Shown: positions 11,694-29,364 of the stretch, one piece after another
How the letters are laid out: every line of letters starts with the position of its first letter
Numbering within the stretch: position 1 is the first letter of the stretch
Source of the DNA: Pseudomonas huaxiensis
Lineage (GTDB): Bacteria > Pseudomonadota > Gammaproteobacteria > Pseudomonadales > Pseudomonadaceae
Assembly (NCBI RefSeq): GCF_003231275.1
Contig: NZ_QKVL01000003.1
Span: 62,001-126,000, forward strand
Length of the DNA stretch: 64,000 nucleotides
Direction: 5' to 3'
Translations under genes and position numbers: made by a program
Notes under the pieces: model-generated
Seen by the model: the letters and a program-made list of their open reading frames with translations, nothing else
What the model was told of the DNA's origin: nothing
The model's database searches: none

Positions 11694-11719
11694 GCCGGGC
11701 GCGTCACGGCGCGCCCGGC
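11694..11719 (+). terminator. GC-rich hairpin between lldP and lldD
   Basis: A 10-bp stem (GCCGGGCGCG / CGCGCCCGGC) lies just after the lldP stop and has no T-tract. It is therefore more likely a transcript-stabilising or processing hairpin than a true terminator. Confidence 0.5.
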
Positions 11720-11752
11720 AGCCGCCTTCTCACACAAACGCTGCGAGACCCC

Positions 11753-12898
11753 ATGATCATTTCCGCCTCCACCGACTATCGCGCCGCGGCCCAGAGCAAG
11801 CTGCCGCCATTCCTGTTCCATTACGCCGACGGTGGCGCATACGCCGAATACACCCTGCGCCACAACGTCGAAGACCTGGCCAGCATCGCTTTGCGTCAGC
11901 GCGTTCTGAAGAACATGTCCGAACTCAGCCTGCAGACCCGGCTGTTCGATGAAACCCTGAACATGCCGGTCGTGCTGGCTCCGGTCGGCCTGACCGGCAT
12001 GTACGCCCGCCGTGGCGAAGTCCAGGCTGCCCGCGCGGCCGCCGCCAAGGGCATTCCCTTCACCATGTCGACGGTCTCGGTCTGCCCGATCGAAGAAGTT
12101 GCCCCGGCCATTGACCGGCCGATGTGGTTCCAGCTTTACGTGCTCAAGGACCGCGGCTTCATGCGCAACGCCCTGGAGCGTGCCAAGGCTGCCGGCGTGA
12201 AGACCCTGGTGTTCACCGTCGACATGCCGGTTCCCGGCGCTCGCTACCGCGATGCCCACTCCGGCATGAGCGGACCGAACGCGCCGCTGCGCCGCGTCTG
12301 GCAAGCCATGACTCACCCGCAATGGGCGCTCGATGTCGGTCTGCTGGGCCGTCCGCACGACCTGGGCAACATCTCCAAATACCGTGGCAACCCCACCGGT
12401 CTGGCCGACTACATCGGTTGGCTGGGTAACAACTTCGACCCGTCGATCTCCTGGAAAGACCTGGAGTGGATCCGCGAATTCTGGGACGGCCCGATGATCA
12501 TCAAGGGCATCCTCGATCCGGACGACGCCCGCGACGCGGTGAAATTCGGCGCCGACGGCATCGTCGTGTCGAACCATGGTGGTCGCCAGCTCGACGGCGT
12601 GCTGTCCAGCGCCCGCGCCCTGCCGGCCATCGCCGACGCGGTGAAGGGTGACATCACCATCCTCGCCGACTCCGGTATCCGCAGCGGCCTGGACGTGGTG
12701 CGCATGATCGCCCTCGGTGCCGACACCGTGATGATCGGCCGCGCCTTCCTCTATGCCCTGGCCACCCACGGCGAGGCCGGCGTACGCAACCTGCTGGACC
12801 TGTTCGAGAAAGAAATGCGCGTGGCCATGGTGCTCACGGGCGCCAAGTCCATCAGCGAAATCACTCGCGACTCGCTGGTCCGCGAACTGGGCGCCTGA
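11753..12898 (+). CDS. lldD: FMN-dependent L-lactate dehydrogenase
   Basis: 381 aa respiratory, membrane-associated enzyme oxidising L-lactate to pyruvate and passing electrons to quinone. FMN alpha-hydroxyacid dehydrogenase fold. It begins [30 protein letters not shown]. The active-site motif [10 protein letters not shown] (about 273-282) carries the catalytic His and substrate-binding Arg. Length and motifs are complete. Lies 69 bp after lldP. Confidence 0.97.
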
Positions 12899-12977
12899 TA
12901 GCGCGCCCACACCCCACACCGCCTGATTGACCGGGGCACGCGGCGCGCCAGACGCCGCGGCCCCGCGAGGAGACTGC

Positions 12978-15788
<2,811 letters not shown>

Positions 15789-15793
15789 GGCAA

Positions 15794-15830
15794 TCGCGGC
15801 GGGCCGTTACCGGTCAACGGCCCGCCGCGA
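15794..15830 (+). terminator. Terminator hairpin after dld
   Basis: A long, nearly perfect GC-rich stem (TCGCGGCGGGCCGTT / AACGGCCCGCCGCGA) starts 6 nt after the dld stop. It lacks a long T-run but closes the lactate operon. Confidence 0.7.
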
Positions 15831-15914
15831 GATTCATCTGAACCCCTGGCAAGCGGCGAAGTCCATCCTGATAGGCCCCATCTTCCCGAGGCCTTCCCAG
15901 CCAAGGAGATTCAC

Positions 15915-16193
15915 ATGAAGCGTACTGTGATTACCGGACTGTTCATGAGCGCCGCACTGCTTGCCTCCCCTGTGTTTGCCGCAGACGACCTGTGTGCTGC
16001 GAACCTGCAGAAAATCGACGACCAAGCGGCCACCCTCAGCACGACCTCGGAAAACCTCGCCAAGTCAGTCAAGGAACAAACCGACGACGCCCGCGCCGCC
16101 CAGGCGGCAGGCAACGACAAGGACTGCATCGCCCTCACCACGAAGGCCCTGAAGGATCTGGAAGACAGCACCAAAGGCGGCGGTAACCAGTGA
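15915..16193 (+). CDS. Small secreted hypothetical protein
   Basis: 92 aa with a clear signal peptide (MKRTVITGLFMSAALLASPVFA, cleavage after AFA at about 22). The mature part is a Lys/Asp-rich, Ala-rich predicted helix with two cysteines (DDLCAANL and KDCIAL) that could form a disulfide. It ends in GGGNQ. Good ribosome site AAGGAG. Probably periplasmic. I do not recognise a named family. It lies between the lactate operon and ssrA, in backbone-like base composition. Confidence 0.8.
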   Translation: MKRTVITGLFMSAALLASPVFAADDLCAANLQKIDDQAATLSTTSENLAKSVKEQTDDARAAQAAGNDKDCIALTTKALKDLEDSTKGGGNQ

Positions 16194-16289: not shown

Positions 16290-16681
16290 GGGGCCGATTA
16301 GGATTCGACGCCGGTAGTGAAACTCTAGGTGCATGCCGAGTTGGTAACAGAACTCGTAAATCCACTGTTGCAACTTTCTATAGTTGCCAATGACGAAAAC
16401 TACGAGGGCTACGCTCTCGCTGCGTAAGCAGCCGAGCCCGCTCTTCTGGTAGCTTCGGCTCCAGCAATCACTAGGGGATGCCTGTAAACCCGAAGTGATT
16501 GTCATACAGAACAGGATCGCCGTGCAGTACGTTGTGGACGAATCGGCTAAAACTTACACAACTCGTCCAAAGCACCCTGCCCGTCGGGCGGCTGCGGATT
16601 AACTCAGTAGACACGGCTAAGCATGTAGTACCGACAGCGGAACATTGGCGGACGGGGGTTCAAATCCCCCCGGCTCCACCA
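16290..16681 (+). ncRNA. ssrA: Transfer-messenger RNA (tmRNA)
   Basis: The 5' end reads GGGGCCGATTAGGATTCGAC, the conserved tmRNA start. The 3' end has the TPsiC-like GGTTCAAATCC and encoded CCA. The tag frame (16386-16427) reads ANDENYEGYALAA then TAA, ending in the ALAA degron. tmRNA rescues stalled ribosomes with SmpB, which is also encoded in this window. Its 3' end is the insertion site of the downstream integrase island and remains intact after integration. Confidence 0.96.
16662..16681 (+). other. Presumed left attachment site (3' end of ssrA)
   Basis: The last bases of ssrA (T-arm and acceptor end) directly precede a P4-type integrase on the same strand, the standard layout for islands that insert at tmRNA. 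No second copy of the 20-bp end was found by eye further right, so the exact core cannot be delimited. Confidence 0.6.
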
Positions 16682-16692
16682 AATTTACATCT

Positions 16693-16719
16693 AAAGACGT
16701 CCACGGACGTCTTTTTTTG
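16693..16719 (+). terminator. Rho-independent terminator of ssrA
   Basis: The stem AGACGTCC/GGACGTCT with a 2-nt loop is followed by seven T's, 12 nt past the ssrA CCA end. A related palindrome (CGTCCATGGACG, 16761-16772) lies 45 nt further on and may be an integrase arm site or a relic of an earlier junction. Confidence 0.85.
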
Positions 16720-16854
16720 TGCCTGAAATCCAGCAAAATCAAGGCTTTAGGGTCTATTAGCGTCCATGGACGTCCGGCACAATCCACGACATCGGGTATT
16801 CCAGATGGTATTCCAAGCCCTTCAGTGGTAGTTTTTGGAATACCAATTGATGTC

Positions 16855-18123
16855 ATGGAACACCTCATGTGCGCCCAAGCCACCCGCCTCTCTGACCGCC
16901 AGCTCAAAGCGGTAAAGCCGAAAGACAAAGACTACGTCCTCAGCGATGGAGACGGTTTGCAGCTGCGCGTGAGGGTCAATGGTTCTACGCTCTGGAATTT
17001 CAACTATCGGCAGCCGATCACCAAGAACCGCATCAATATGGGCCTCGGCACCTATCCAGAGCTCTCACTCGCGCAAGCCAGGAAGAAGACGGTCGAAGCC
17101 AGAGAGCTTCTCGCCCAGGGCATCGATCCGAAAGAACAACGTAGCGAGTTGGAGCAGACAAAAAGGCAGGCAACCGAGCACACGTTCGAGAACGTGGCAT
17201 CTGCCTGGTTTGAACTGAAAAAAGATTCGGTCACTCAGGCGTATGCCGAGGACATCTGGCGCTCTCTTACGCGGCATGTCTTTCCATCGCTGGGAACAAC
17301 ACCTATCTCGCAGATCAATGCCCCGAGGGTCATCGAGCTGCTGCGCCCTCTGGAAACCAAAGGCAGCCTGGAGACCGTGAAGCGACTGACCCAACGACTC
17401 AACGAGATCATGACCTACGGCGTGAACTCGGGAATGATCTTCGCCAACCCGCTCAGTGGTATTCGGGCCGTTTTCAAGAAACCGAAAAAACAAAACATGG
17501 CAGCCCTCCGTCCGGAAGAACTGCCAGAGCTGATGATTGCCATTGCTAATGCGAGCATAAAAAGAACAACGCGCTGCCTGATCGAATGGCAACTTCACAC
17601 AATGACTCGCCCAGCGGAAGCCGCTACGACATCCTGGGCTGACATCGATCTAGACAAGAAAATCTGGACGATCCCAGCGGAGCGGATGAAGAAGCGACGT
17701 GCGCACGTCATACCACTGACTGAACACGCACTTGCTCTGCTGGAGACAATAAAGCCCTACAGCGGCCACAGAGAATACGTGTTCCCAGCTGACAGAGACC
17801 CACGGGATCATTGCAATAGTCAGACGGCAAACATGGCCCTGAAACGTATGGGATTTGAAGGTAGATTGGTGAGCCACGGCATGCGCTCCATGGCCAGTAC
17901 GATCCTGAACGAAGAAGGATGGGAACCTGAGCTTATCGAGGTCGCACTTGCGCACGTAGACAAAGACGAGGTACGCAGCGCATACAACCGAGCGGACTAC
18001 ATTGAGCGCAGACGCCCTATGATGATCTGGTGGAGCGAACACATTCAAAAAGCCGCCACTGGCAGCCTGTCCGTCTCTGCCATCCAGGCGCCTAGAGACT
18101 TAAAAATAGTATCGATGGGCTGA
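16855..18123 (+). CDS. P4-type tyrosine recombinase / island integrase
   Basis: 422 aa. An N-terminal Arm-binding DUF4102 domain (LSDRQLKAVKPKDKDYVLSDGDGLQLRV, about 9-36) is followed by a core-binding SAM-like domain (about 100-180). The catalytic domain has Arg in TMTRPAEA, HxxR in SHGMRS, His in ALAHVD and the nucleophile Tyr in the AYNRADY region. It catalyses integration and excision at ssrA. Start chosen at MEHLMCAQ; ATG 16867 is equally possible. An open frame to 16645 would overlap ssrA and is rejected. Confidence 0.95.
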   Translation: MEHLMCAQATRLSDRQLKAVKPKDKDYVLSDGDGLQLRVRVNGSTLWNFNYRQPITKNRINMGLGTYPELSLAQARKKTVEARELLAQGIDPKEQRSELEQTKRQATEHTFENVASAWFELKKDSVTQAYAEDIWRSLTRHVFPSLGTTPISQINAPRVIELLRPLETKGSLETVKRLTQRLNEIMTYGVNSGMIFANPLSGIRAVFKKPKKQNMAALRPEELPELMIAIANASIKRTTRCLIEWQLHTMTRPAEAATTSWADIDLDKKIWTIPAERMKKRRAHVIPLTEHALALLETIKPYSGHREYVFPADRDPRDHCNSQTANMALKRMGFEGRLVSHGMRSMASTILNEEGWEPELIEVALAHVDKDEVRSAYNRADYIERRRPMMIWWSEHIQKAATGSLSVSAIQAPRDLKIVSMG

Positions 18124-18284
18124 TTCCAAGTTTCCGCTTAGGCGCTGCTATTGCGCTTAAACCCAGGCAAAGAGTGAGGGTTAGATAAAATTGATATCGC
18201 AAGCGGCTCTTAATCTTGAAATATACACTATATCGAACACTTCGACCCCAAACATTGCCAACTCCTTCAAGGAAAGATAATAAA

Positions 18285-19274
18285 ATGAAAAAACCGACCA
18301 AAATAAACTCCATATTAATTACAATCTTATTCAGCAGCTTCGCATATAGTGAACCAACAACCCCTCCGCTCCCCCCTCATGAAAGTAGTGCTAGCGCACA
18401 AAAAGCAGAAAGCTCACCAGAAAAAGCAACCTCTCCCTCATCCAATACAAAGCAAACCGAGCAACACCCACTAAAAATCACCGAAACTAGCGAATCAACA
18501 AATATAACACAGCCAGAACTCCACAAAGAACTTGTAGAAATACATGATCAATTACAAAAGTTAAAGCCCTGGTACACCGCACTTTTTCCGGGATTGTTTG
18601 CTCTACTCGGTATTGTGATAGGAGGGATAATATCTCTGCTTATTCAAAGAGGCCAGCGCCTTCATGACACCACCGAGCGACTCAAAAAATCGGGGTTTGA
18701 AGCAAAGCTAAAACTAATTGAATATCGAAGCAAGCAAGTAAACGAATTCTACGGCCCAATGCTTGTGCTATTAAAGCAAAGCAAAGAGCTAAGTATGCAG
18801 CTACACAACCAATTAGCCAACGATGCTCCTGAACGGTACAAGTTTGAGAGTGACAGTACCAAGAAGATGAGTACATCATTGTTCATTTATGAGACAGGCC
18901 AGCCCAAGAAAGCATTTAGACTTATTTCGGAATTACCTTACTTGGGAACCCATCATAAAGCAGCTTTACCTAGGGTAAAAGTCATAATAGACACAGGTGA
19001 GCGCCTTGCAAAACTTATTGAAGAAAAATCAGGACTCGTAAAGCCGAGTAGCCAGGATCTAATCGGCTGTCTTGGAACTTACTTAGCGCACCTTACAGCA
19101 TTACGTGACGCATACTCGCTCACTCAAAAAACTAAAGGCACTGCCCTGCGCACTCATGATGCAGTGTTTCCAAGAGAGATCGAAGGACTGACTCGAAGCG
19201 ATTACGACGACTTCATTAAGCAAATAGAAGAATGGGAGAATCTGGTAGACAAACTCCTAAGGGATCAAAAATGA
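18285..19274 (+). CDS. Membrane-anchored hypothetical protein
   Basis: 329 aa, AT-rich, with a good AAGGA site. An N-terminal signal or anchor (KINSILITILFSSFAYS) precedes a low-complexity Ser/Pro/Glu/Lys linker (about 25-75) and a short coiled coil (ELHKELVEIHDQLQKL). One strong transmembrane helix follows (about 100-122, ALFPGLFALLGIVIGGIISLLI). The last 200 residues are soluble and helical, with conserved-looking charged segments (LKLIEYRSKQVNEFYGPML). I cannot name the family. It shares a 4-bp ATGA overlap with the methyltransferase gene, so the two are translationally coupled. Possible island cargo or defence function; unproven. Confidence 0.75.
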   Translation: MKKPTKINSILITILFSSFAYSEPTTPPLPPHESSASAQKAESSPEKATSPSSNTKQTEQHPLKITETSESTNITQPELHKELVEIHDQLQKLKPWYTALFPGLFALLGIVIGGIISLLIQRGQRLHDTTERLKKSGFEAKLKLIEYRSKQVNEFYGPMLVLLKQSKELSMQLHNQLANDAPERYKFESDSTKKMSTSLFIYETGQPKKAFRLISELPYLGTHHKAALPRVKVIIDTGERLAKLIEEKSGLVKPSSQDLIGCLGTYLAHLTALRDAYSLTQKTKGTALRTHDAVFPREIEGLTRSDYDDFIKQIEEWENLVDKLLRDQK

Positions 19275-19891
19275 AAAATCTAAGGACATTGGCACCCGAA
19301 GCTGACAGTCAAACAATTGATTACTACAACAAAAATGGTGAAGAATATGCCGAGAAGACTCTCCACCTGCAATTGAACGATCAGTGGCTAGAGTTCACCA
19401 CGCATATAAAACCAAAAGGAAAAATATTAGATATCGGCTGCGGCTCTGGTCGAGACATGATTAAATTCCAGCAACTTGGGTTTTTTACCGAAGGTCTCGA
19501 AGCCTCCCCGGTAATGGCAAGAATCGCACGCCAAAACAGCGGATCAGTGGTCCATGAAATCCCTATTGAAAAAATGACCTTTAACGAGCAATTTGATGGG
19601 GTCTGGGCATGCGCATCACTACTTCACGTACATGAAGACAATCTACTGCTTGTGTTTGACAAAATCTTCACATCACTTAAAAGTGACGGATGTTTTTATT
19701 TTTCTTTGAAGCATGGTAAGGGCCAGATACGCCACGATGATGAAAGGCTATTCGTGTACTACAATGAAAGCAGGCTTCGGGGCCTCCTCAATAAATTTAA
19801 CTATATCAATACCCTACGAATCTGGACATCAAAAGATTCAGCTCAACGTGCAGGCAATCTATGGCTAAACTGCATTATAAAAAAAACATAG
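19271..19891 (+). CDS. Class I SAM-dependent methyltransferase
   Basis: 206 aa. Motif I ILDIGCGSGRD lies at about 51-61, an acidic residue ends beta2 (TEGLEASP), and the motif II/III region is FDGVWACASLLHV (about 98-110). Methyltransf_11/25 type. It resembles small-molecule (tellurite/thiopurine-like) methyltransferases more than DNA methylases: no NPPY/DPPY or PC motif is visible. Substrate unknown. Translationally coupled to the upstream membrane protein gene. AT-rich like the rest of the island. Confidence 0.82.
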   Translation: MKNLRTLAPEADSQTIDYYNKNGEEYAEKTLHLQLNDQWLEFTTHIKPKGKILDIGCGSGRDMIKFQQLGFFTEGLEASPVMARIARQNSGSVVHEIPIEKMTFNEQFDGVWACASLLHVHEDNLLLVFDKIFTSLKSDGCFYFSLKHGKGQIRHDDERLFVYYNESRLRGLLNKFNYINTLRIWTSKDSAQRAGNLWLNCIIKKT

Positions 19892-20307
19892 TAGGACAAA
19901 AAATCCAGTTCAGCCTTTAGCTCTACGTTTAATGTTAGGAATCAAGTGTTGTCATGCTGACGTTAATAAACTCATAGAAACGCCCGATCTATGTAGCTCT
20001 TTAAGTCTTAAATGGCAACCCTGTCGATTCGACGCCCCCACCCCTGTGAACAACCAAACAGGCCGCGCCGATCCAGATCTATGGATTGCATAGACCCCAC
20101 GGAATCGCCTTTACGGTTCGCTGCTCGATGAGATGATTCCATACGAAATAAATCGACGTTAGACAGGGAATGAATGGAAAGGGCTTGGGAAGGTTTCGAA
20201 TTGCAACGATGTGGCAATACCTCATACCTCGAACCAGCCAATGCTGACGTGGTAAACACTCAGTAGCAGCAATCTGTACGTCAAAAAAAGACATACACAG
20301 CAAAAAT
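19892..20307. other. Intergenic stretch upstream of dnd operon
   Basis: About 0.4 kb. Short open frames on the reverse strand (20008-20351) lack ribosome sites and family features. I see no RNA gene. It separates the methyltransferase operon from the dnd promoter. Confidence 0.5.
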
Positions 20308-20338
20308 ACGTTTAAAAATATGCAAAAAACGTCATAAT
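20308..20338 (+). promoter_or_regulatory. Candidate dnd promoter with inverted repeat
   Basis: The arms ACGTTT (20308-20313) and AAACGT (20327-20332) flank an A/T-rich centre. They overlap a plausible promoter, TTTAAA (20311-20316), 16 nt, CATAAT (20333-20338), 32 nt before the dndB ATG. In other strains DndB represses the dnd operon by binding an operator there; this repeat is a candidate by position only. Confidence 0.35.
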
Positions 20339-20369
20339 TGGGGCATCTCAACGACTTGACCGATGGGCC

Positions 20370-21455
20370 ATGACCTCACTTCACGCCGATTATTGCTACT
20401 CTTTTCCCGCAGTGAGGGGCATCCAAGCAGGCCGCCCCTTCTATATAGCGACCTGTCCCCTAAGGATCATCCCAAAAATATTCAGCTTTGATGAATGCGA
20501 GGTCCCGCCGGAGCTGCGCGCCCAGAGAATTATCAACAAAGCGCGTATCCCTGAAATGGTGAGGTATTTGTTGGACAATCCTGGGAACTACGTATTTTCC
20601 GCGCTTACAGCTTCCATAGCGGTAGACGTTGCATTTGAGGAGCACGCCGGTTCCTACAACCTAGGGACATTAAGGGTCCCTATGGACGCGCAAATCCTCA
20701 TCAATGACGGCCAACATCGTCGAAAAGCAATTGAAGAGGCACTTCAAGAACGGCCAGAACTCGGGCAGGACAACATACCTGTTCTGTTCTTTGTCGACGA
20801 AGGTCTTAGACGTAGCCAACAGATGTTTGCCGACCTAAACAAATACGCAGTCAAGCCCAGCCCCTCCTTGGCAACGCTTTACGACCATCGGGATCCTGAG
20901 TCGGAACTCGCGCGCACCCTAGCAACGACCATCTGTCCTTTCATGGGCCTTACAGAGATGGAGAGATCCAACGTAGCAGTTAGATCTAATAAATTATTTA
21001 CTTTGAGCAGCATCAAACAAGCGACTCGAGCTCTCCTAGGAAAAGGTAATCGTGATACATATAGCGATGCAGAGTCGCTGTTGGCAAAAACTTACTGGGA
21101 GGCCCTATATCAGTGCATGCCCGATTGGCAGATGGCGATCAAAAAGGAAGTTTCACCAACCCAATTACGCTTAGAGTATATTCATGCACATGGCGTCGGA
21201 TTGCATGCACTCGGACTTTTGGGTAAACATCTAATTTTCGCACGCCCAGAAACTTGGGAAAGTGAACTCCAAGAACTTAGACATATAGACTGGAGCAAAA
21301 CAAATCCTGAATGGTTACGCCGAACCATGTCCCATGGAAAGCTAAGCAAGTCTACAGTTTCTATTCAATTAACATGCAATGCGCTAAAACAAGCGCTCCA
21401 ACTTCCTCTAACTCCAGAAGAAGTCATGTTGGAAAAACAGGTTTTACAGCAATGA
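20370..21455 (+). CDS. dndB: DNA phosphorothioation regulator DndB
   Basis: 361 aa, the usual DndB length. It has the family hallmark DGQHR at 113-117, within the segment ILINDGQHRRKAIEEAL, followed by FADLNKYAVKPS (about 152-163). DndB is the transcriptional regulator of the modification operon and influences which sites are modified. The DGQHR box is related to the ParB/Srx nucleotide-binding fold. First gene of dndBCDE, overlapping dndC by 4 bp (ATGA). There is no strong ribosome site before the start, so the start is moderately sure. Confidence 0.92.
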   Translation: MTSLHADYCYSFPAVRGIQAGRPFYIATCPLRIIPKIFSFDECEVPPELRAQRIINKARIPEMVRYLLDNPGNYVFSALTASIAVDVAFEEHAGSYNLGTLRVPMDAQILINDGQHRRKAIEEALQERPELGQDNIPVLFFVDEGLRRSQQMFADLNKYAVKPSPSLATLYDHRDPESELARTLATTICPFMGLTEMERSNVAVRSNKLFTLSSIKQATRALLGKGNRDTYSDAESLLAKTYWEALYQCMPDWQMAIKKEVSPTQLRLEYIHAHGVGLHALGLLGKHLIFARPETWESELQELRHIDWSKTNPEWLRRTMSHGKLSKSTVSIQLTCNALKQALQLPLTPEEVMLEKQVLQQ

Positions 21456-23080
21456 GTAACCTTAACCAAAATTTCGACTTAGCCGATTACGAAGACTTCA
21501 TTAACAAAGAAATCTTCGCAGGCAAACCTTTAGCGGATTATGTTGCTGAAGTGCAACGAATATACTGCTCAGATGGCCGCCCATGGATCATCGGTTATAG
21601 TGGAGGAAAAGATTCATCAGCAGTCATTACGCTGGTCTATCTTGCATTACTCGGATTAAAACCGGAAGATCGAAAAAAACATGTTTTCTTAGTCTGCTCA
21701 GACACTCTTGTTGAAACACCGGTAGTCGTAGACTTAATACTCGAAAGCATGCAGCTAATTGAAAAAGGTGCCCGCAGAGATGGTCTTCCAATTACTCAAC
21801 ACGCTGTAACGCCGAAGGTTTCGGAAACATTTTGGGTAAATCTATTAGGCAAAGGGTATCCTGCGCCAAGTAGAAGTTTTCGCTGGTGCACCGAACGGAT
21901 GAAAATAAACCCAGTAAGTGAGTTCATCAAAGAAAAAGTCAGTCAGTTTGAAGAAGTAGTAGTTCTGCTTGGGGCCCGAAGCAGCGAGAGTTCATCTCGG
22001 GCGCAGGTGATTGCAAAGCATAAGATTGATGGCACACACTTGGCACGTCATACCACTTTAGCCAACGCCTTTATATACACACCAATTGACACTTGGGACA
22101 CTGAAGATGTATGGAAGCTGCTTCGCGGTGCTTTCCGTTACGCCGGCGTCGATATCGAAGAGTGGGAGAATCCATGGGGCGGAAGTAATCGGCAGTTGTG
22201 GACGCTTTATATGCACTCCTCTGGACAAGGGGAATGTCCTTTAGTAATTGACGAAAGCACTCCCTCATGTGGAAATTCTCGCTTTGGCTGTTGGACTTGT
22301 ACGGTCGTTACCAAAGATCGTGCGATGGAAAGCCTTATTCAGAACGGTGAAGATTGGATGCTACCGCTTTTGAAATTTAGGGACCTTTTGGCAAGCACAA
22401 GTGACCCGGAGCAAAAAAACGTTTTCCGTAATTATAAACGGAGATCGGGCAAGGTGACTTATCAGTATGCAAAAGAAGGCGCAGATCTTAATGAAGTACG
22501 GAAGCATGTCCCTGGTCCTTACTGGCTAAAGTATCGAAAAATCTGGCTTCAAGAGCTGCTCGAACTTGAAAGAGACATCAACAAAGGTGGCCACTCTATA
22601 AAGCTCATTTCCGAGCCGGAATTGCATGTTATCCGGCAACAATGGCTTAGAGATCCTAATGAGCCTGATTGGAGAGACGAGCTCCCTGAAATATACCGCA
22701 ACGTATATGGAACTGATTTAGCCTGGGTTATCGATGACCAAAGCAGATTCGATGTCCACGATGCCGATATACTTACCGATATATGTTCGAAATATGAAGT
22801 AGAGCCAGAAATGGTGATGAAATTGATTGAGCTTGAAATTTCCATGGAAGGTTTGGGGCGACGGCAAGGTATATTTGAAAAAATTGGGACAGTCCTCAAA
22901 CAAGACTGGGGATCACTTGAGGTTATCGAACAGCAAAACACCGCACTTCAGAAGCGACATGAACGGGACCTTCATGCTGACGCTATTTCAATTTTGGAAA
23001 ATGATTTAAAAAACATATCCGAGCAGATTATTGAAGTGGAAAAAACCAAGAGCTCACGGCGTGAAGACTTTGTTAAATGA
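21452..23080 (+). CDS. dndC: DNA phosphorothioation sulfur-transfer protein DndC
   Basis: 542 aa PAPS-reductase/ATP-pyrophosphatase family. PP-loop SGGKDSS at 50-56. Cysteines for a 4Fe-4S cluster appear in FRWCTERMK (about 148) and in CGNSRFGCWTC (about 270-280). It activates the DNA backbone and transfers sulfur received from a cysteine desulfurase. Overlaps dndB and dndD by 4 bp each. No dndA lies nearby, so a chromosomal IscS probably supplies sulfur, as in many Dnd strains. Confidence 0.95.
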   Translation: MSNLNQNFDLADYEDFINKEIFAGKPLADYVAEVQRIYCSDGRPWIIGYSGGKDSSAVITLVYLALLGLKPEDRKKHVFLVCSDTLVETPVVVDLILESMQLIEKGARRDGLPITQHAVTPKVSETFWVNLLGKGYPAPSRSFRWCTERMKINPVSEFIKEKVSQFEEVVVLLGARSSESSSRAQVIAKHKIDGTHLARHTTLANAFIYTPIDTWDTEDVWKLLRGAFRYAGVDIEEWENPWGGSNRQLWTLYMHSSGQGECPLVIDESTPSCGNSRFGCWTCTVVTKDRAMESLIQNGEDWMLPLLKFRDLLASTSDPEQKNVFRNYKRRSGKVTYQYAKEGADLNEVRKHVPGPYWLKYRKIWLQELLELERDINKGGHSIKLISEPELHVIRQQWLRDPNEPDWRDELPEIYRNVYGTDLAWVIDDQSRFDVHDADILTDICSKYEVEPEMVMKLIELEISMEGLGRRQGIFEKIGTVLKQDWGSLEVIEQQNTALQKRHERDLHADAISILENDLKNISEQIIEVEKTKSSRREDFVK

Positions 23081-25071
23081 TTATTAAAAAGCTAGTACTG
23101 CATAACTTTCGTGTATTTCATGGTACCCATGAAATACATTTGGACCCTCAGGGCTCCTCCCAAAATCAGAAACCAGTGATTCTTATTGGTGGACTAAATG
23201 GTGCTGGGAAAACTTCGATATTGACCGCGATTCGATATGCCCTGCATGGCAGGCTCGCATTTGAAGGTATTCATCAGACTCGAGATTACATTGCCCACAT
23301 CTCGGCGTTGATTAATCACGGCGCGGATGAAACTTCACGCCCCACTGAAGCCGCTGTAGAGCTAACGTTTACTTACAACAAAGATGGTGAAGAGTCAGAG
23401 TTCACTGTAGTGCGGAGCTGGCATCGTGACACAGTCGACAATTTGGTTTTGCAGCAAAACGGTATTCCTTTAAAAGAGCTAAATTATGAGCAATGCCAAG
23501 GCTTCTTGAACGAGTTAGTTCCACCAGGTGTTGCTGATCTGTTTTTTTTTGATGGAGAAAAAATATCGGCATTAGCAGAGGATGCTTCCGGTCAACTGCT
23601 AAAAACAGCAGTTAAGAGGCTCCTAGGCTTGGATGTTATCGAGCGACTGGCCACTGACTTGACTATCTATTTAAAGAGGCAAAACTCACTGCATTTAGAG
23701 AGTACAGAGCAGGTCAGGCTCTCCGAAATCGAGGCTGAATCGGACCGCTTACGATTGAGTGTTGAACAGTTCCGCTTTGCTGCAGACCTAGTAAAAAACC
23801 GTGTAGATTTTATATCTGACGACATACGTAAACTTGAGGGTACATTGGCAGCTCAAGGTGGAGCTTTTGCACTCAGCAAAAATCAAGAGCAGTTGGTTAT
23901 TGAGGAGCTTTTGAAAGAAAAAGCTGTTATAGAAAGAAATATTCGGTCTGAGTGTGAAGGATCCTTGGTCTATTGCCTTGCCCCAAAAACATTGGGTAGT
24001 TTGCTAAAGCACCTAGACGGTGAAAGCAAATCTAAGAGAGCTAAGAATTTTTCAGAACAACTAGAATTATTTCTCGGGGCATTCAAAGAGAGATTAAAGT
24101 CAGCACCTCAACCCACACAGAATGCCGTAGAGGAAATGATGCAGCTGGAGCTAAAAAGCTATTTTAGCTCCAAACCGTCTACCGAGATATTATTGGACAT
24201 ATCCGATCGTGAAACGGGCGTAATAAGTCATGCAATCAATTATGAAGCAAAGCAATCGTTCAAACGATTTAATCTAGCTAAGACTCGCCTTGCTGAAATT
24301 GAGCGCGCACTTGAAGATGCAGCGAGAAACATCGAACGCGCGCCAGACGATCAACAGCTGCTTGAATCATTTTCAAAAATAAGAGAATTAGACAAAAAAC
24401 GCATAAACGCTAATGACGAGCATGAAAATCTTTTAAGAAACATCAAGCTCACGATATCAAAACAACTCGACTGCGAGCGAAAAATCCGGAAAATCCATGA
24501 TAGTGTGCGTTCTAATCATGGCTTGACGACCGCGATTTCAAACGCAGCTATGACAGTTTCAATGCTAAATGATTATGCCAAAGCTCTCACAGCGGCACGG
24601 GTCAAAAAACTAGAGAAAAACTTCTCCGATGCCTATAGTCGTTTGGCCCGCAAGGATGATCTTAAAATAACGGCGCGTATCAACCCGGAAACTTTTGACG
24701 TAGAACTAATAGATCAGCAGCAAAACACTCTGAACCGCAAAGCGCTTTCCGCCGGTGAAAAGCAGATCTATGCTGTAGCAGTCCTAGATGCACTTGCAAA
24801 AACTTCGGGAAGACATTTGCCTGTCATAATCGACACCCCTCTCGGTCGCCTGGACTCAATCCATCGCCAAAACTTAGTAGAAAATTATTTCCCGTTTGCT
24901 AGCCACCAAGTGATTTTATTATCCACGGACACGGAAATTGGTGAAGCTTACTTTAGCGAATATCTTTCGCCGTACATTTCGCACTCCTACGAGATAGAAT
25001 TTGATAGCAATAAACTATCAACGCGGATTTTACCAGGCTATTTTTGGAGTTACGATGGAGGGGCGCGTTAA
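23077..25071 (+). CDS. dndD: DNA phosphorothioation ATPase DndD
   Basis: 664 aa SMC/Rad50-like ATPase. Walker A GLNGAGKTS lies at 39-47. Long coiled coils (about 190-540) separate it from the ABC signature LSAGEKQIY (about 563) and Walker B LPVIIDTPLGRLD (about 583). It is thought to open or scan DNA for the modification complex. Overlaps dndC (ATGA) and dndE (TAATG), so the four proteins are made in a fixed ratio. Confidence 0.95.
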   Translation: MIIKKLVLHNFRVFHGTHEIHLDPQGSSQNQKPVILIGGLNGAGKTSILTAIRYALHGRLAFEGIHQTRDYIAHISALINHGADETSRPTEAAVELTFTYNKDGEESEFTVVRSWHRDTVDNLVLQQNGIPLKELNYEQCQGFLNELVPPGVADLFFFDGEKISALAEDASGQLLKTAVKRLLGLDVIERLATDLTIYLKRQNSLHLESTEQVRLSEIEAESDRLRLSVEQFRFAADLVKNRVDFISDDIRKLEGTLAAQGGAFALSKNQEQLVIEELLKEKAVIERNIRSECEGSLVYCLAPKTLGSLLKHLDGESKSKRAKNFSEQLELFLGAFKERLKSAPQPTQNAVEEMMQLELKSYFSSKPSTEILLDISDRETGVISHAINYEAKQSFKRFNLAKTRLAEIERALEDAARNIERAPDDQQLLESFSKIRELDKKRINANDEHENLLRNIKLTISKQLDCERKIRKIHDSVRSNHGLTTAISNAAMTVSMLNDYAKALTAARVKKLEKNFSDAYSRLARKDDLKITARINPETFDVELIDQQQNTLNRKALSAGEKQIYAVAVLDALAKTSGRHLPVIIDTPLGRLDSIHRQNLVENYFPFASHQVILLSTDTEIGEAYFSEYLSPYISHSYEIEFDSNKLSTRILPGYFWSYDGGAR

Positions 25072-25418
25072 TGCTGCCGAATCGAATGCAACTTGGCCGC
25101 CAGACAGAAGATCATCTTAAGCGACTTAAGATGCAAACTGGCATAACGCCGAACGTAAGCGCAAGAATCGCGTTTTTTCGATCCATTGAATCGAGTTTTA
25201 TCTATGGTGGAGAAACAATTAAACTAGACGGCTCGCTGGTTCTAGACAAGGTAACTTGGCTTGGCGACACGGCCTCCGTTACAGAGTTGGTTTTGAAGAT
25301 AAAGTATCCAACATTTGAGAGCCGTGACCTCATGAAAGCCTGGGCCGCACATGTCGAGGACGGCATTGCAGCATTACGCAACCATAAGAATTTATTATCT
25401 TTTTCTGAGGCCCTTTAA
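25071..25418 (+). CDS. dndE: DNA phosphorothioation protein DndE
   Basis: 115 aa, mostly helical. It begins MLPNRMQLGRQTEDHLKRLKMQTGITPNV, the typical DndE N-terminus, with many basic residues on the helices. DndE is a small tetrameric protein that binds nicked DNA and supports modification. It overlaps the dndD stop. A frame open from 25044 is not used, because the family start is at 25071. Last gene of the operon, followed by a hairpin. Confidence 0.92.
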   Translation: MLPNRMQLGRQTEDHLKRLKMQTGITPNVSARIAFFRSIESSFIYGGETIKLDGSLVLDKVTWLGDTASVTELVLKIKYPTFESRDLMKAWAAHVEDGIAALRNHKNLLSFSEAL

Positions 25419-25445
25419 TTCACGCGTTCTTTTTAAAGAAATACT

Positions 25446-25485
25446 GGGCGCCTACATTCCCTAGAGAATAAACGCGCCCCTTTTA
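25446..25485. terminator. Terminator-like hairpin between convergent dnd and nuclease operons
   Basis: GGGCGC (25446-25451) pairs with GCGCCC (25474-25479), with an inner ATTC/GAAT stem, and is followed by CTTTT. It lies in the 145-bp gap between dndE and the facing operon. Confidence 0.5.
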
Positions 25486-25563
25486 AATCTTTAGGGTTTA
25501 AAAAAACAAAAGAAACTAAACCCATAGCAAACCTCTACGCACCTTCATTTCGGACTTTGTACT

Positions 25564-26460
25564 TTATATTGCCATGAGCAAAGGGGCGAGATTGCTCGTG
25601 AGATCTGGATGGCTAGGTATCTTAATATTCTCACTTAGACTTATTAAATCGGCCAATGAGTACTGTTCGGCCAAAGCCTCAGCCACTTGCCGCCTAGACC
25701 TCAACAAGGCTCCCACCTTTGGAGCAGAGGTGCTTGCCCCATGCTTTACATCGCCATTGGATATAATGGCATACACATAGGCAGCTCCAGATGTTGATTT
25801 TGGAACGCCCAAGGCATTTAAATATTGCATATATTTTTCTGTCCGGGGTAAACCGGCATATTTAGCATATTCTTGTAATACTTCAGCAGCCCCGAATGCC
25901 GTCACGCTGGATTTAGCCTGGATAAATATAGCGGTAGATCGAAGGGGCCCTGTCTTAATCAACCCAATGTAATCTATACCCTCGTCACGCCCACCATCTG
26001 TCAAATAAATTGGATCACATCCAAGGATTCGTAAATAGCATAGGCAAGGAAGATGAAATTCTTTTTCGTGTAGAGTACCCAGCCAAGCATATATATCAAA
26101 AATATTCCGCTCAGGAGCTGTCGTCCCGGTATGAGCTTCATATCGAGCGTGACGCCACGTTACGAGTGTACCGTCCTGATCTGGGATACGATCAAAAGGT
26201 GGTGCTACACCTTGGTACTTCCAGCGCTGAATTTGACGTTCGATCTCATCCATTAACAGGAGTGCCTGATCCGTCGCAATATCAACTGCTTCCGTTTCGT
26301 CAACACTCCGTTCGATAAGAAAGGCTACAAAATGGTCACTCACATTGATAAGTGGTGGACAACCTGCACCCACCGTTACGAATTCTAGTCTTTCAACTAC
26401 ATAAAAACGTATTGCACTTTTGATATCTGCGAAGCCTGCAACGGTTTTTCTAGTCGCCAT
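25564..26460 (-). CDS. Mrr-like PD-(D/E)XK restriction endonuclease
   Basis: 298 aa. The central region carries the Mrr-type nuclease pattern: a Glu-containing helix (about 132-136), DGGRDEGIDYIG (155-166) as the metal-binding Asp strand, and IFIQAKSS (178-185) as the QxK strand. The flanking N-terminal helical part (1-125) and the C-terminal domain are unrecognised. Mrr enzymes often cut modified DNA (type IV). The start overlaps the upstream ParB gene by 11 bp. Last gene of a four-gene operon facing dndBCDE. Predicted role: the cutting subunit of a defence module. Target unknown. Confidence 0.8.
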   Translation of the reverse strand: MATRKTVAGFADIKSAIRFYVVERLEFVTVGAGCPPLINVSDHFVAFLIERSVDETEAVDIATDQALLLMDEIERQIQRWKYQGVAPPFDRIPDQDGTLVTWRHARYEAHTGTTAPERNIFDIYAWLGTLHEKEFHLPCLCYLRILGCDPIYLTDGGRDEGIDYIGLIKTGPLRSTAIFIQAKSSVTAFGAAEVLQEYAKYAGLPRTEKYMQYLNALGVPKSTSGAAYVYAIISNGDVKHGASTSAPKVGALLRSRRQVAEALAEQYSLADLISLSENIKIPSHPDLTSNLAPLLMAI

Positions 26461-27565
26461 TTAGGGCGACCTCTACCATTTTGCGTCGCTGCTCTATGAT
26501 TGCGGCCAGTTTATTGAGTTCGTCCAAAAACTCCTGAGGATCATCTGACAGGGCTGACTGTGGTAAGTCGCCGAGAAGAATCTGGGCAGTCGCCATAAGC
26601 TTGCGCCAATCCTTAGGCTTAGGGTCGTCTGACGTTGCTTGTACCCTTGCCTCCTCAATCGAGACCAAGTGCCCCTCAAAATCATCAATCAATCCGTTGT
26701 GATGATTTTCGATGAGATAGGCAATATTCTTTATCTGTTTAGGATCGTGAAGACGACGACGGCCCTTGTTATCTTCGTCTGGAGTTATCCACGAGTAAAA
26801 TCGACGCAGATTATTAAGATCGCTAAAGCGCTTTACCGTTTCATCCCATCCCATCCATTCTTTCAGGATATTATTTCTCACAGCCTCTTCGAATAGAGAA
26901 AAATAGTCATTGCGTGCCTTAGCACTAAACTCCTCGTCCTCTCGCATCTGAGCAAGTGCACGATAGGTCCGATAGAGTCGACCAGTGGCTTGCGCAGACA
27001 ATCCAAATTGTTGTCCGACAACCCCAAGCTTTTTGTGTTCACCATCGATCTGCTCAGCAACTAACTTCGCACGCTGTGCAGGATCCCAATCACGGATACC
27101 GCTAATATGGCGTATCCCTTGAAACATCCAAGAAATATCCACACTGCCCGAACCGTTATAGACCAGCACTTCGATCTCATTGGTTTCTTCTAACAGCTTT
27201 ATCAGCGCGTCTTCATCGATATCCTCCCCAACAACGTCTCCGTTCTGAATATCCGCGCGTAATTTACTTAGTGAACGAAAGCGCCGGTTCCCCTCCACCA
27301 CAACGTATTTGTCAGGGATTCCGGCAATAGGTCGAACAACGATCCGATCAAGCAACAAAAAACCGTTGCGTAGCATGCTGTTGTACAAATTTTCGATACC
27401 GTGTAAGTCGATATCTTGGCGAGCTCTCGCTTGTTTTGAGGCGTCGGCGATATTTTTGTCTGGAACAGTGGGGCGGTTTGACTGCGTCCAGAAACGTGGG
27501 TTATTCGGGTCAAGAAGGATGCTATCAACAGATAATTCTTGCCGACTCAATTGATCCATATACAC
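26450..27565 (-). CDS. ParB/Srx-fold nuclease or CTPase-like protein
   Basis: 371 aa. The N-terminal ParB/Srx domain has LDPNNPRFW (about 18-26) and the box-II-like VVVEGNRRFRSL (88-99). A KorB/ParB-like helix-turn-helix (VVGQQFGLSAQATGRLYRTYRAL, about 200-222) follows, then a 150-residue helical C-terminus. Unlike chromosomal ParB it has no parA partner. It lies between a DGQHR gene (33-bp gap) and an Mrr-like gene (overlap). It may bind and slide on DNA using a nucleotide to guide the nucleases. An alternative ATG is at 27559. Confidence 0.8.
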   Translation of the reverse strand: MYMDQLSRQELSVDSILLDPNNPRFWTQSNRPTVPDKNIADASKQARARQDIDLHGIENLYNSMLRNGFLLLDRIVVRPIAGIPDKYVVVEGNRRFRSLSKLRADIQNGDVVGEDIDEDALIKLLEETNEIEVLVYNGSGSVDISWMFQGIRHISGIRDWDPAQRAKLVAEQIDGEHKKLGVVGQQFGLSAQATGRLYRTYRALAQMREDEEFSAKARNDYFSLFEEAVRNNILKEWMGWDETVKRFSDLNNLRRFYSWITPDEDNKGRRRLHDPKQIKNIAYLIENHHNGLIDDFEGHLVSIEEARVQATSDDPKPKDWRKLMATAQILLGDLPQSALSDDPQEFLDELNKLAAIIEQRRKMVEVALNGD

Positions 27566-27598
27566 GTGTATTTCCTCACTATGCCATTATGATTGAGA

Positions 27599-28855
27599 TT
27601 ACTCGATCTCGGTCAAAACACGATTGGGTAACCTAGCTTCAAACTCGGTGCCCAACGTTTTCGCATAGGAAGCACGAAGCTTAACGCGATCTGTCGGAAG
27701 GCCGACCATATAGCTCAGTAGCTCGATCAGAAGACGCTTGCCGGTCAACATCATCCGTTGGCGATCGTTGTCCCAAATAACGTCCCTGTAAGGGCGAGCA
27801 TTTAGGTCGGTAGGAATAACCGCAAGCTGGCGAACGGCTTCCGGAAGAGATAGCTCGTGATGCTTTGCGAAAGCAATAGCCACAGACGTAAAAACGTTCA
27901 ATCCCAGAGGACGAAATAAGAGATGGCCTCCGTGTTCGCCTCTATGCAATTGCGTTACCCGCGCCGGCTCAGTGGACCCAAAGAGCTGACCAACAGCAGG
28001 AAACGCTTCCGCCATGGCTTCGAAGAACTTAAGTGCATATGCATAATAGCCATCCAATTCTTTCTCTGACGGCCTAAAAAATCGAAGTGAAGTGTCGGTC
28101 TTTTTACCAATCCGATGTTTGAATATCTGTTTGAGAACATCATAGAGATTTGAGATGGTTGTCAAAGACACCCTGTTTGTAGATGGTATATTTTCGCTGG
28201 CTTCAATGAGAATTTTGGGTGAAGAAAACCACGAATTAGTCTCAATGAAACGACGAGCGGTAATAGCCATCGTATCGTCTTCGTCGAGAGCAATGATGTC
28301 CCGTTTCTTGACTGCCTTCGCGGTCTTGTTGAGTGTTGTAAACAGGCGCCGAGTGCGCTCTCGCTTGGCCTCACTATGGGCAATGAAAATTACTGATAGA
28401 CGCTCAATTCCGAAATCGGTTTGATCAGCTATTGCTCGCTTGATACCCGCAAGCCTGTGTTGCCCATCCACTGCAAAGATTTTCTCATCACCTGACAGAC
28501 TCAAAAATCCAAGTGTATCCAGTGCCTGCTCACCGATACGGGAGACCAGACCTTGATCTGATGTCTTACCGAAGTTACCTACCTCCAACCATTCTGGATG
28601 GCCATCGTAAGTTGCCAGCACCAGCGAATTGAAGAAGCGCTCGGTCGTACGCTCAAGATACGAAGCGATGTGCTCCGCACGCTCACCTTCAAGGCTCCGC
28701 TGGATTAAACGTGATAAAGCCTTGTCGTTGTGAATATCCTTTGCGTAATCAACGCGCAAGGCTATCTCGGAGATAGGCATGAGGCAGGTATAGTAAACCC
28801 AGTCCCCTATATGCCCTCGCAGGGCTGGAAGCAAAAGCTCACCATTGCTATTCAA
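27599..28855 (-). CDS. DGQHR-domain (DndB-like) protein
   Basis: 418 aa. VDGQHRLAGIKRA at 129-141 and FTTLNKTAKAVKKRD (about 172-186) are the two conserved segments of the DGQHR/DndB superfamily. It is longer than and very different from the DndB encoded 6 kb away, so it is not a simple duplicate. Similar DGQHR proteins occur in Dpd (7-deazaguanine DNA modification) and other modification islands. Second gene of the leftward operon, overlapping the GIY-YIG gene by 4 bp. A likely sensor or regulator of the nucleases; inference only. Confidence 0.85.
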   Translation of the reverse strand: MNSNGELLLPALRGHIGDWVYYTCLMPISEIALRVDYAKDIHNDKALSRLIQRSLEGERAEHIASYLERTTERFFNSLVLATYDGHPEWLEVGNFGKTSDQGLVSRIGEQALDTLGFLSLSGDEKIFAVDGQHRLAGIKRAIADQTDFGIERLSVIFIAHSEAKRERTRRLFTTLNKTAKAVKKRDIIALDEDDTMAITARRFIETNSWFSSPKILIEASENIPSTNRVSLTTISNLYDVLKQIFKHRIGKKTDTSLRFFRPSEKELDGYYAYALKFFEAMAEAFPAVGQLFGSTEPARVTQLHRGEHGGHLLFRPLGLNVFTSVAIAFAKHHELSLPEAVRQLAVIPTDLNARPYRDVIWDNDRQRMMLTGKRLLIELLSYMVGLPTDRVKLRASYAKTLGTEFEARLPNRVLTEIE

Positions 28856-29364
28856 AATGCCGCCCTCCTAGCGTTGGAAATACTGGCCTCAAAATCCCGC
28901 TCATTGACGGGTGGATTGACGGCAGAGAGAAATGCTCTTTCCAGCTTGCTTAAGCTCATACGCCGGTCAGGTATTGGCACGAAACTGAAAAATAAATCAC
29001 CTCTCCAGCGCTCGAGCATTAAATACACTTTTGGACGACCATTACGTCGCCTTAGGTCGCCCAAATATTGGGCATAACGGGAGTGAAGAGTTCCCGCTGA
29101 ATCATCACCCGTAATCCCCATGTAAAGGATATAGCCATGCGTAGGTAGGTTCGATGGATCCAGAGCTACTGAGAACACATAGATGCCACGCTCTTTGGGG
29201 ATCTGGCGTCGATTAGCAGCGTCAAACCTCAGCCTTGTCCAACCTAGCTGCATTGTTGACTGGAACTGACGCCAAGCGCTCAGATCAAGATAAAACTGAT
29301 ACAGGTTCGCCTTGTAGCGATCCGTATCGGCGAGCAGATCCTGAAATTTATTTATCGTACTCAA
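28852..29364 (-). CDS. GIY-YIG family nuclease
   Basis: 170 aa. All landmarks of the fold are present in order: GIY (60-62), YMGIT as the YIG strand (81-85), Arg96 in LHSRY, Glu142 in LSKLERAFL, and Asn154 in NPPVNE. A 55-residue N-terminal helical part precedes the domain. The start is TTG 29364 behind GGAAGG; no good ATG is available. First gene of the four-gene operon. With the Mrr-like protein the operon encodes two different nuclease folds. No known Dnd/Ssp restriction arm that I can recall has this gene set. Confidence 0.85.
   Translation of the reverse strand: MSTINKFQDLLADTDRYKANLYQFYLDLSAWRQFQSTMQLGWTRLRFDAANRRQIPKERGIYVFSVALDPSNLPTHGYILYMGITGDDSAGTLHSRYAQYLGDLRRRNGRPKVYLMLERWRGDLFFSFVPIPDRRMSLSKLERAFLSAVNPPVNERDFEASISNARRAAF

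Follow-up and report, generated by a model that had tools for sequence, protein, structure and literature searches.

The window, a stretch of 64,000 nucleotides from Pseudomonas huaxiensis, carries an island with the tmRNA gene as its apparent integration site, a tyrosine integrase, dndBCDE on the forward strand and a four-gene operon on the opposite strand (Table 1). As no second copy of the tmRNA 3' end was found, either in the window (3 mismatches) or in the rest of the genome (1 mismatch), a second att site could not be assigned and the island has no defined right end. The real start of dndC probably lies 3' of 21311. Relatives of the SAM methyltransferase were also seen close to dnd genes in two other loci (L017 and L024). 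The operon and dndBCDE lie tail to tail, with 145 bp between the ends of dndE and the Mrr-like open reading frame, and all four minus-strand frames between 25564 and 29364 are open, two of their junctions overlapping (by 4 and 11 nt) and one leaving 33 nt between genes, as the sequence-only reading had described. The overlap of 4 nt joins the GIY-YIG stop to the start of the DGQHR gene and that of 11 nt joins the ParB and Mrr-like genes. A promoter and terminator scan returned fewer sites than were found in shuffles.

Table 1. Features of the island and of the four-gene operon in the window.
Feature	Coordinates	Strand	Basis and remarks
tmRNA (ssrA)	16290..16681	+	
Tyrosine integrase	16645..18123	+	PF00589, PF13356, PF22022
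Hypothetical protein	18216..19274	+	no family over cut-off (Pfam, NCBIfam); no PADLOC match
SAM methyltransferase	19232..19891	+	PF13649
dndB	20370..21455	+	TIGR03233, 467.5 bits (cut-off 328)
dndC	21311..23080	+	TIGR03183, 522.4 bits; match from residue 79
dndD	23077..25071	+	TIGR03185, 474.1 bits
dndE	25044..25418	+	TIGR03184, 90.2 bits (cut-off 71.85)
Mrr-like PD-(D/E)xK nuclease, 298 aa	25564..26460	-	PF04471; GRDEGID 157-163, QAK 181-183
ParB-fold protein, 371 aa	26450..27565	-	kin to N-terminal part of PADLOC PDC-M38A
DGQHR (ParB/Srx-fold) protein, 418 aa	27599..28855	-	TTG start; TIGR03187, PF14072, tree clade, fold
GIY-YIG nuclease, 170 aa	28852..29364	-	TTG start; operon gene 1; alignment, Pfam on relatives, fold

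The absence of dndF, dndG and dndH, also claimed from the sequence, holds for the annotated island genes (Pfam, PADLOC and NCBIfam). Genome-wide, only the SspH model gave a negative with a working control, matching the control plasmid and nothing in this genome; the DndH model matched neither the genome nor its own control. None of the four operon proteins matched a PADLOC model named DndFGH, SspE, SspFGH or Pbe at E<=0.1, in a library that includes PbeC, SspF, SspG and SspH, and none has the DUF262-DUF1524 make-up of SspE and DndI, in line with the earlier view that the quartet does not match such systems.

Landmarks of GIY-YIG nucleases are the GIY and YIG motifs, a catalytic Arg and Glu and a later Asn. 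The first protein of the operon had no family match in Pfam, PADLOC or NCBIfam, and 11 relatives searched at E up to 1 matched GIY_YIG_2 in five cases (best 1.4e-3) and GIY-YIG in two (best 1.3e-5). In the family alignment G60, Y62, Y81, G83, R96 and E142 are invariant in all 16 complete copies; the landmarks read earlier from the window thus stand for the two Tyr, the Arg and the Glu, while Asn154 is present in 10 of the 16. The predicted fold (mean pLDDT 68) gave GIY-YIG nucleases in VIA rows 1-8, among them T4 EndoII (Z 7.6, 84 residues, 2.5 A), UvrC (Z 6.7, 70 residues, 2.3 A), Hpy188I (Z 5.7, 77 residues, 2.6 A) and I-TevI (Z 5.0, 66 residues, 2.9 A). Both motifs and fold place the protein in the GIY-YIG superfamily, at VIA Z values all below 8.

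The DGQHR protein scored 126.8 bits with TIGR03187 (cut-off 58.85) and 102.4 bits with the Pfam family DndB, PF14072 (cut-off 29.1), and all 16 aligned copies keep its QR, DGQHR and FxxxN motifs unchanged; domain score and motifs together assign it to the DGQHR/ParB-Srx superfamily. Next to the dndB product it is a second DGQHR protein in the window, as was noted beforehand. It reached only 66.4 bits with the DndB equivalog TIGR03233 (cut-off 328), and the DGQHR partners of GIY-YIG proteins form a clade of their own apart from DndB (support 100/100). The residue preceding QR is Ile or Leu in 16/16 of these proteins and Ala in 7/7 DndB. Its model (pLDDT 73) resembles ParB CTPases (VIA Z 6.4) and Srx (5.7), followed by SspE (6jiv, 4.5), BrxU (4.4) and DndI (9jfl, 3.2). 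The architecture of SspE and DndI was not recovered, GmrSD_N scoring 13.5 bits against 33.2 and GmrSD_C being absent. Both predicted folds are held with medium confidence, all VIA Z values lying below 8, and Foldseek returned nothing for either model at E<=0.001. DUF262 and DGQHR domains have been described as homologous, with the QR pair and FxxxN motifs common to both (PMC4619093).

For the third protein, the assignment to ParB/Srx narrowly missed the Pfam cut-off (ParB_N, 25.3 bits against 26.3) and gained from PADLOC matches to PDC-M38A (2.7e-42, residues 7-269) and PD-Lambda-5_A (1.5e-9). It shares with these two the ParB-fold N-terminal region but stops after it, the Mrr-like gene coming next, whereas a relative in L002/L020 (730 aa) extends into a region that is ATPase-like by eye and another in L003/L021 has similar length. 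No literature match was found for 'PDC-M38'. The Mrr-like protein has the GRDEGID and QAK motifs noted earlier; its class rests on the D...QxK motif and on a single profile, Mrr_cat, at a marginal score (22.7 bits, cut-off 21). It matched one of 398 genomes at E<=1e-3, its own, no plasmid, and nothing at E<=1 across the loci then examined. The PDB was searched by sequence with the single Mrr-like and GIY-YIG proteins as well as profiles A5 and A4, and yielded chance-level matches or nothing; viral contigs scanned with the single ParB and DGQHR proteins gave no relative.

The quartet was rejected as a conserved unit. Among the loci examined the complete set occurs in the window only, the closest approach being an Ideonella locus (L024) with the order ParB, HARE/Mrr, GIY, DGQHR. 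ParB and Mrr are best read as a second, variable sensor/nuclease pair within the same operon. What recurs is the GIY-DGQHR pair, the GIY-YIG gene standing directly upstream of the DGQHR gene in 17/17 distinct loci of the close family, and beside it in 0/10 DndB-like control loci. The 17 come from viral contigs as well as from Pseudomonadota, Bacillota, Binatota and Poribacteria. Of 13 measured junctions, 11 show an overlap of 1 or 4 nt, and the two in Bacillota have gaps of 4 and 10 nt. Distances among the GIY-YIG proteins co-vary with those among their partners over 13 loci (r 0.82, reached in 0 of 10,000 permutations, shared host phylogeny left in).

These 17 loci include 5 of 14 plasmid records (three Rhizobium records being one locus), 3 of 6 viral loci and 1 of 3 phage records. 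The other three viral loci are closer to DndB and lack a GIY-YIG gene, and the other two phage records are DndB with dndC and dndD, likewise without it. Plasmid loci L032 and L070, DndB-like without GIY-YIG, were excluded, as were seven plasmid records (H8, H9, H11, H12, H14-H16) of identity <=27% and coverage up to 66-68%. A divergent pair (L045) stands outside the count; L015 (genome G192) and L028, whose contigs agree in length and ORFs, were pooled, as were E. coli L065 and L067 with L060. A tblastn search of plasmids with the GIY-YIG protein of L026 and the DGQHR protein of L045 found nothing. Some GIY-paired DGQHR proteins are annotated as DndB in plasmid records.

Modification genes of dnd or ssp type for phosphorothioation (PT) lie within the sequence examined in 13/17 pair loci; of the four without any PT gene there (L023, L059, L060 and L061), three are viral and the remaining one is a short bacterial contig. 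In SspABCD-SspE systems sspE stands behind sspD, and in three loci (L030, L043 and L044) the pair follows sspD in the same direction at 20-52 nt; in L026 it is flanked by sspC and a gene for a cysteine desulfurase. Searching 385 alphaproteobacterial genomes with the GIY-only A5 profile gave three strong matches, all adjoining DGQHR and PT genes: G192, whose GIY-YIG protein is part of that profile, and L043 and L044, which were new. The pair coexists with other PT effectors. It adjoins SspFGH in L029, stands beside Pbe/CxC-type genes in L026, L027, L028/L015, L031 and L044, and in a Salmonella ICE (L066) has a DndI orthologue directly behind it and dndEDCB facing it. The proposal that the operon stands in the place of dndFGH was therefore too strong as a rule. 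Conversely, PT systems can do without the pair, since it is missing from 5/5 dnd-bearing control loci (L016-L018, L068 and L069). A new PT-linked restriction arm, as the sequence-only reading put it, is favoured by neighbourhood for the pair, and not for the quartet.

This recurrence across distant bacteria, mostly beside DNA-sulfur genes, suggests an undescribed two-part restriction arm. There is about an even chance that GIY-YIG and DGQHR proteins form one effector in two chains, a split counterpart of SspE and DndI. The DGQHR protein, of predicted ParB/Srx fold and with its NTPase motifs intact, would read the state of the DNA, most likely whether PT is present or absent, or whether the PT machinery is active; its nucleotide binding or hydrolysis would license the separate GIY-YIG nuclease, which would then nick or cut invading DNA. 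The model is SspE and DndI, whose HNH nickase is gated by a DUF262 PT sensor (ParB-fold, DGQQR) of the same chain; here sensor and nuclease would be split and GIY-YIG would replace HNH. In the window a second putative sensor/nuclease pair (ParB-fold and Mrr-like) is appended to the operon. The reading predicts complex formation, PT sensing, NTPase activity, DNA cleavage and phage defence. Counting against it, one cassette family accompanies both Dnd and Ssp, which are reported to differ in target DNA; the four loci without PT genes, the prophage copies, the dnd-bearing controls that lack the pair, its coexistence with other PT effectors and the medium confidence of the fold models also weigh against it.

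A rather unlikely alternative is a self-contained two-gene anti-phage system, type IV-like or infection-triggered, that is independent of PT and merely frequent in PT-holding defence islands. In E. coli P2-like prophages the pair lies between the portal and replication genes, where the annotated neighbours include neither dnd nor ssp, and one viral copy sits in the gpA-gpQ region of P2, described as an anti-phage hotspot in PMC9122126; given its occurrence in such prophages, the pair may be a cassette parked beside Dnd, the other option raised from the sequence. The variant of L023 and L059, with a GHKL-ATPase-like neighbour (49% identical over 813 aligned positions), fits an independent system too. 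GmrSD and BrxU, ParB-fold relatives in fused form, are reported to act on modified DNA, and the GIY-YIG enzyme PD-T4-3 bears the title 5hmC-specific in the PDB. Yet 13 of 17 loci holding dnd or ssp-type genes, and three pairs right behind sspD, look far above what a random defence gene would show. That same position, which is the place of sspE, argues against a back-up suicide effector, in which the GIY-YIG nuclease would cut host DNA when PT defence fails and the DGQHR protein would restrain it like an antitoxin. Rakesh et al. 2024 (PMC10853773) proposed suicide effectors for URI (GIY-YIG) and REase genes that stand alone at Dnd boundaries, and strict pairing also suits a nuclease/inhibitor couple, but the retention of QR, DGQHR and FxxxN seems to go beyond the needs of an inhibitor, and we consider this reading improbable.

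A reading in which the PT operon has a second DndB-type regulator in the DGQHR protein, with the GIY-YIG nuclease as an unrelated passenger, is very improbable. The Pfam family name and the DndB annotation of some plasmid members point that way, against the low equivalog score, the separate clade and the unbroken association with GIY-YIG. Moreover, the DGQHR partner coexists with dndB in five loci (the window, L022, L024, L031 and L066), and ssp pair loci hold no further DndB match in the stretch examined. DndB, itself a DGQHR domain protein, differs in clade, in lacking GIY pairing and in having Ala before QR.

As a proposed effector in two chains, the pair resembles SspE and DndI in joining a ParB-fold NTPase with a DGQxR motif to a nuclease beside ssp or dnd (PMC4619093, PMC11662687), and differs from them in having two chains, GIY-YIG and a DGQHR family protein instead of one chain, HNH and DUF262. 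Before QR, DndI has the PT-sensing Tyr25 (PMC11662687) where the pair has Ile or Leu. GmrSD and BrxU likewise combine a ParB-fold NTPase with a nuclease, GmrSD also in two genes, but the nuclease is HNH and they are not known to be tied to PT genes. URI nucleases, like that of the window, lie at dnd cluster edges, sometimes on the opposite strand, and the abstract and main-text sections consulted in Rakesh et al. 2024 name no DGQHR partner or Ssp link (PMC10853773). GIY-YIG nucleases at Dnd boundaries were thus already known; the literature searched yielded neither their pairing with DGQHR nor a connection to Ssp. PbeABCD, DndFGH and SspFGH are known or proposed PT effectors, as is proposed for the pair, and Pbe and SspFGH can coexist with it. 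With moderate confidence, the pair may be a portable split sensor-nuclease cassette that plugs into DndBCDE, SspABCD, Pbe-bearing mixed clusters, a GHKL-ATPase variant and phage defence hotspots, and so a further PT restriction branch besides DndFGH, SspFGH, SspE, DndI and Pbe.

DndFGH is present in 806 of 3416 nuclease-bearing taxa according to PMC10853773. Many PT modification clusters lack it, and the pair is a candidate for the restriction agent in such clusters. With two genes and about 1.7 kb it is small and recurrent, and its copies in E. coli P2-like prophages make it directly testable in a laboratory strain. The survey also exposes an annotation habit, GIY-paired DGQHR proteins sometimes being named DndB. 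If the proposal is true, ParB-fold sensors would be readers of DNA state that combine freely with nucleases of the HNH, GIY-YIG and Mrr types.

The four-gene operon belongs to a stretch of the window with a mean GC content of 0.45 (18000-29364), compared with 0.61 for positions 1-16000 and 0.52 for 31000-64000. This low-GC stretch starts directly after ssrA. Past the integrase gene come a hypothetical gene, a methyltransferase gene, dndB, dndC, dndD and dndE, followed on the opposite strand by the four genes, which stand tail to tail with dndE at a distance of 145 bp. No further island cargo was recognised among the ORFs examined, and the tmRNA end was not found a second time in the window or elsewhere in the genome. 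A re-check of ORFs and motifs bore out the coordinates, overlaps and motifs that the sequence-only reading had given for the four genes.

Positions of features in the window and in compared loci (L-numbers)
Locus	Positions	Feature	Remark
Window	16290-16681	ssrA	
Window	16645-18123	Tyrosine integrase	First gene of low-GC stretch
Window	19232-19891	SAM methyltransferase	Upstream of dndB
Window	21311-23080	DndC	
Window	25044-25418	DndE	
Window	25564-26460	Mrr-like	Fourth operon gene
Window	26450-27565	ParB-fold	Third operon gene
Window	27599-28855	DGQHR	
Window	28852-29364	GIY-YIG	
Window	30045	Cytochrome c gene	Next annotatable gene beyond operon
L022	11276-13232	SIR2-like (below Pfam cut-off) and RES-domain genes	After the pair
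L023	157-2631	GHKL-ATPase-like	
L029	6971-8299	SIR2-like gene	
L029	14989-16242	DGQHR, GIY partner	Annotated 'DNA sulfur modification protein DndB'
L031	8002-9288	DGQHR, GIY partner	Annotated 'DNA sulfur modification protein DndB'
L045	7631-9792	Divergent GIY-DGQHR pair	
L059	11587-14028	GHKL-ATPase-like	

The island showed no dndA; five cysteine-desulfurase-like matches lie elsewhere in the genome, so that a housekeeping desulfurase could serve. The methyltransferase has relatives close to dnd genes in L017 and L024; L031 carries a methyltransferase gene between DGQHR and dndB. DndC and DndE score so highly to the PADLOC 'MTase_II' models PDLC03333 and PDLC03334 that these labels look wrong. 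Two adjacent DUF262 (GmrSD_N) genes (L055, L056) were found on another contig of the genome, C112.

The DGQHR protein scores 126.8 bits to TIGR03187 (cut-off 58.85), 66.4 bits to the DndB equivalog (cut-off 328) and 39.3 bits to 'DNA phosphorothioation-associated DGQHR protein 1' (cut-off 450). Its identity with DndB is ruled out by the equivalog score and by its separate clade: in a tree of 22 rows, among which the long-branched L032DG and L045DG are of unsure placement, a 100/100 branch parts seven DndB rows from 13 rows of the pair family. The DGQHR partners in L029 and L031 carry DndB annotations despite this separation, and L031 also has its own dndB. The window's GIY protein on its own matched no family; its relatives match GIY-YIG models, and GIY-YIG nucleases top the list for its predicted fold. 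The third gene encodes a ParB-fold protein, and the product of the fourth is classed as Mrr-like on a single profile match slightly over the cut-off together with a D...QAK motif.

The first relative of the pair formed by the GIY-YIG and DGQHR genes was found in genome G192 with the single GIY sequence. A profile from a two-row DGQHR alignment recovered seven loci in genome contigs, all seven with GIY directly upstream. Three more distinct loci came from tblastn against plasmids (one with equal scores in three Rhizobium records) and two (genomes G653 and G872) from a GIY-only profile; three of six loci from a viral scan and one of three from phage records by tblastn, the latter in a Salmonella ICE, were accepted. 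GIY is followed by DGQHR in all 17 distinct loci, window included, and a GIY match is absent from all ten control loci with more distant DGQHR proteins (L016-L018, L032, L062-L064, L068-L070), each closer to DndB. Eleven of 13 measured junctions overlap by 1 or 4 nt; in the two Bacillota, 4 and 10 nt separate the genes. Damage is seen in some copies: L024 and L027 have a split DGQHR, L066 a frameshifted one and L028/L015 (one locus) one cut near the contig end, and GIY is incomplete in L059. In L045, left out of the count of 17, a divergent pair (GIY 156 aa, DGQHR 564 aa, 4-nt overlap) is flanked by pbe-type and dnd genes; it represents another subfamily built on the same plan.

The GIY profile matched eight of 385 genomes of G192's class at E<=1e-3: strongly in G192, G653 and G872, at 1e-6 in G595 (L045), and otherwise within four frames of 609-612 aa. 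Among 369 genomes of the window's class six matched, the source genome strongly and five in frames of 613-747 aa; all these long frames are taken to be UvrC-like, judging by length. The single GIY sequence matched the source genome and G192 among 398 genomes of the phylum. These few matches indicate that the pair is rare.

A GIY-YIG gene beside dnd is already known, since the available text of Rakesh et al. (2024, PMC10853773) reports URI (GIY-YIG) and REase nucleases at Dnd cluster boundaries, at times on the opposite strand, and proposes them as suicide effectors. Its strict pairing with DGQHR and its presence in ssp loci and the P2 hotspot were not found in the literature searched, mostly outside subscription journals, nor in the available portions of PMC12839542, PMC12704722, PMC9122126 and PMC12707154. 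The accessible part of the last lists dndFGH/sspFGH, sspE and pbeABCD as phosphorothioate (PT) restriction branches.

DGQHR and DUF262 are described as homologous ParB/Srx-type domains sharing a QR pair, DGQ(H/Q)R and FxxxN (PMC4619093, as far as available), and in SspE and DndI the DUF262-type domain acts as PT sensor and NTPase and governs an HNH nickase (available text of PMC11662687 and PMC10952713). The QR, DGQHR and FxxxN motifs are invariant in the 16 aligned DGQHR copies, and the fold list, from a medium-confidence model, includes ParB CTPases, sulfiredoxins, SspE, BrxU and DndI. On these grounds, the DGQHR and GIY-YIG proteins may form a split SspE/DndI-like effector in which GIY-YIG would be the nuclease part; from sequence, medium-confidence folds and linkage, we infer everything biochemical in this proposal. 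DndI senses PT via Y25, in a hydrophobic patch with P23 and Q26 (PMC11662687, in the part available), and YQR begins at residue 25 of the DndI orthologue in L066; the sensing Tyr therefore directly precedes QR. That position is Ile or Leu in the pair's DGQHR (16/16) and Ala in DndB (7/7), which might be a telling difference, taken as a hint and no more. The ParB and Mrr proteins appear to follow the same sensor/nuclease logic a second time. ParB-fold relatives lie upstream of a HARE/Mrr gene in L024 and of genes without family assignment in L019 and L033; that in L002/L020 extends, by eye, into an ATPase-like region, and that in L003/L021 is of like length.

In the compared stretches, which vary in length, dnd or ssp-type genes accompany the pair in 13 of the 17 loci: dnd in the window, L022, L024, L025, L028/L015, L031 and L066, and ssp-type in L026, L027, L029, L030, L043 and L044. 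L027 was so classed on SspC-like pieces and a desulfurase resembling those of L026. Pbe-type genes also occur alongside the pair in L026, L027, L028/L015, L031 and L044. The pair follows sspD by 20-52 nt in the same direction in L030, L043 and L044, and sspFGH lies just downstream of it in L029. In L026 the pair has sspC on one side and a gene for a cysteine desulfurase on the other. The PP-loop gene of this locus gives its highest score to BrxP, and the locus is therefore possibly a BREX type 4-like cluster; clusters of that type share relatives of SspB, SspC and SspD (PMC12839542, available part). In L066 the pair faces dndEDCB tail to tail, as in the window and L024, and is followed by the DndI orthologue (PDB 9jfl, E 6e-233). 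The pair is missing from all five control loci that bear dnd genes (L016-L018, L068, L069).

A GHKL-ATPase-like protein stands in place of PT genes in L023, a bacterial contig of 8.7 kb, and in the viral contig L059. The two proteins are 49% identical over 813 aligned positions, with a Pfam HATPase_c_3 match in L023 and none in L059; together with the pair this gene is possibly a separate three-gene variant. Neither dnd nor ssp genes occur in the compared stretches of the viral contigs L060 and L061, L061 having just 1,062 bp on one flank. The L060 pair recurs with identical DNA in two of 5,426 E. coli genomes (L065, L067), in P2-like prophages with the portal gene on one side and replication genes on the other, the site described in the available text of PMC9122126 as the gpA-gpQ anti-phage hotspot; a PAPS-reductase-like prophage gene lies nearby. 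Loci of this kind, in which the compared stretch contains neither dnd nor ssp genes, indicate that the pair can be carried along without PT genes. The DGQHR nearest to the window's in the tree is that of the Ssp-linked L029 (56% identity), and thus Dnd and Ssp machineries appear to have exchanged the cassette.
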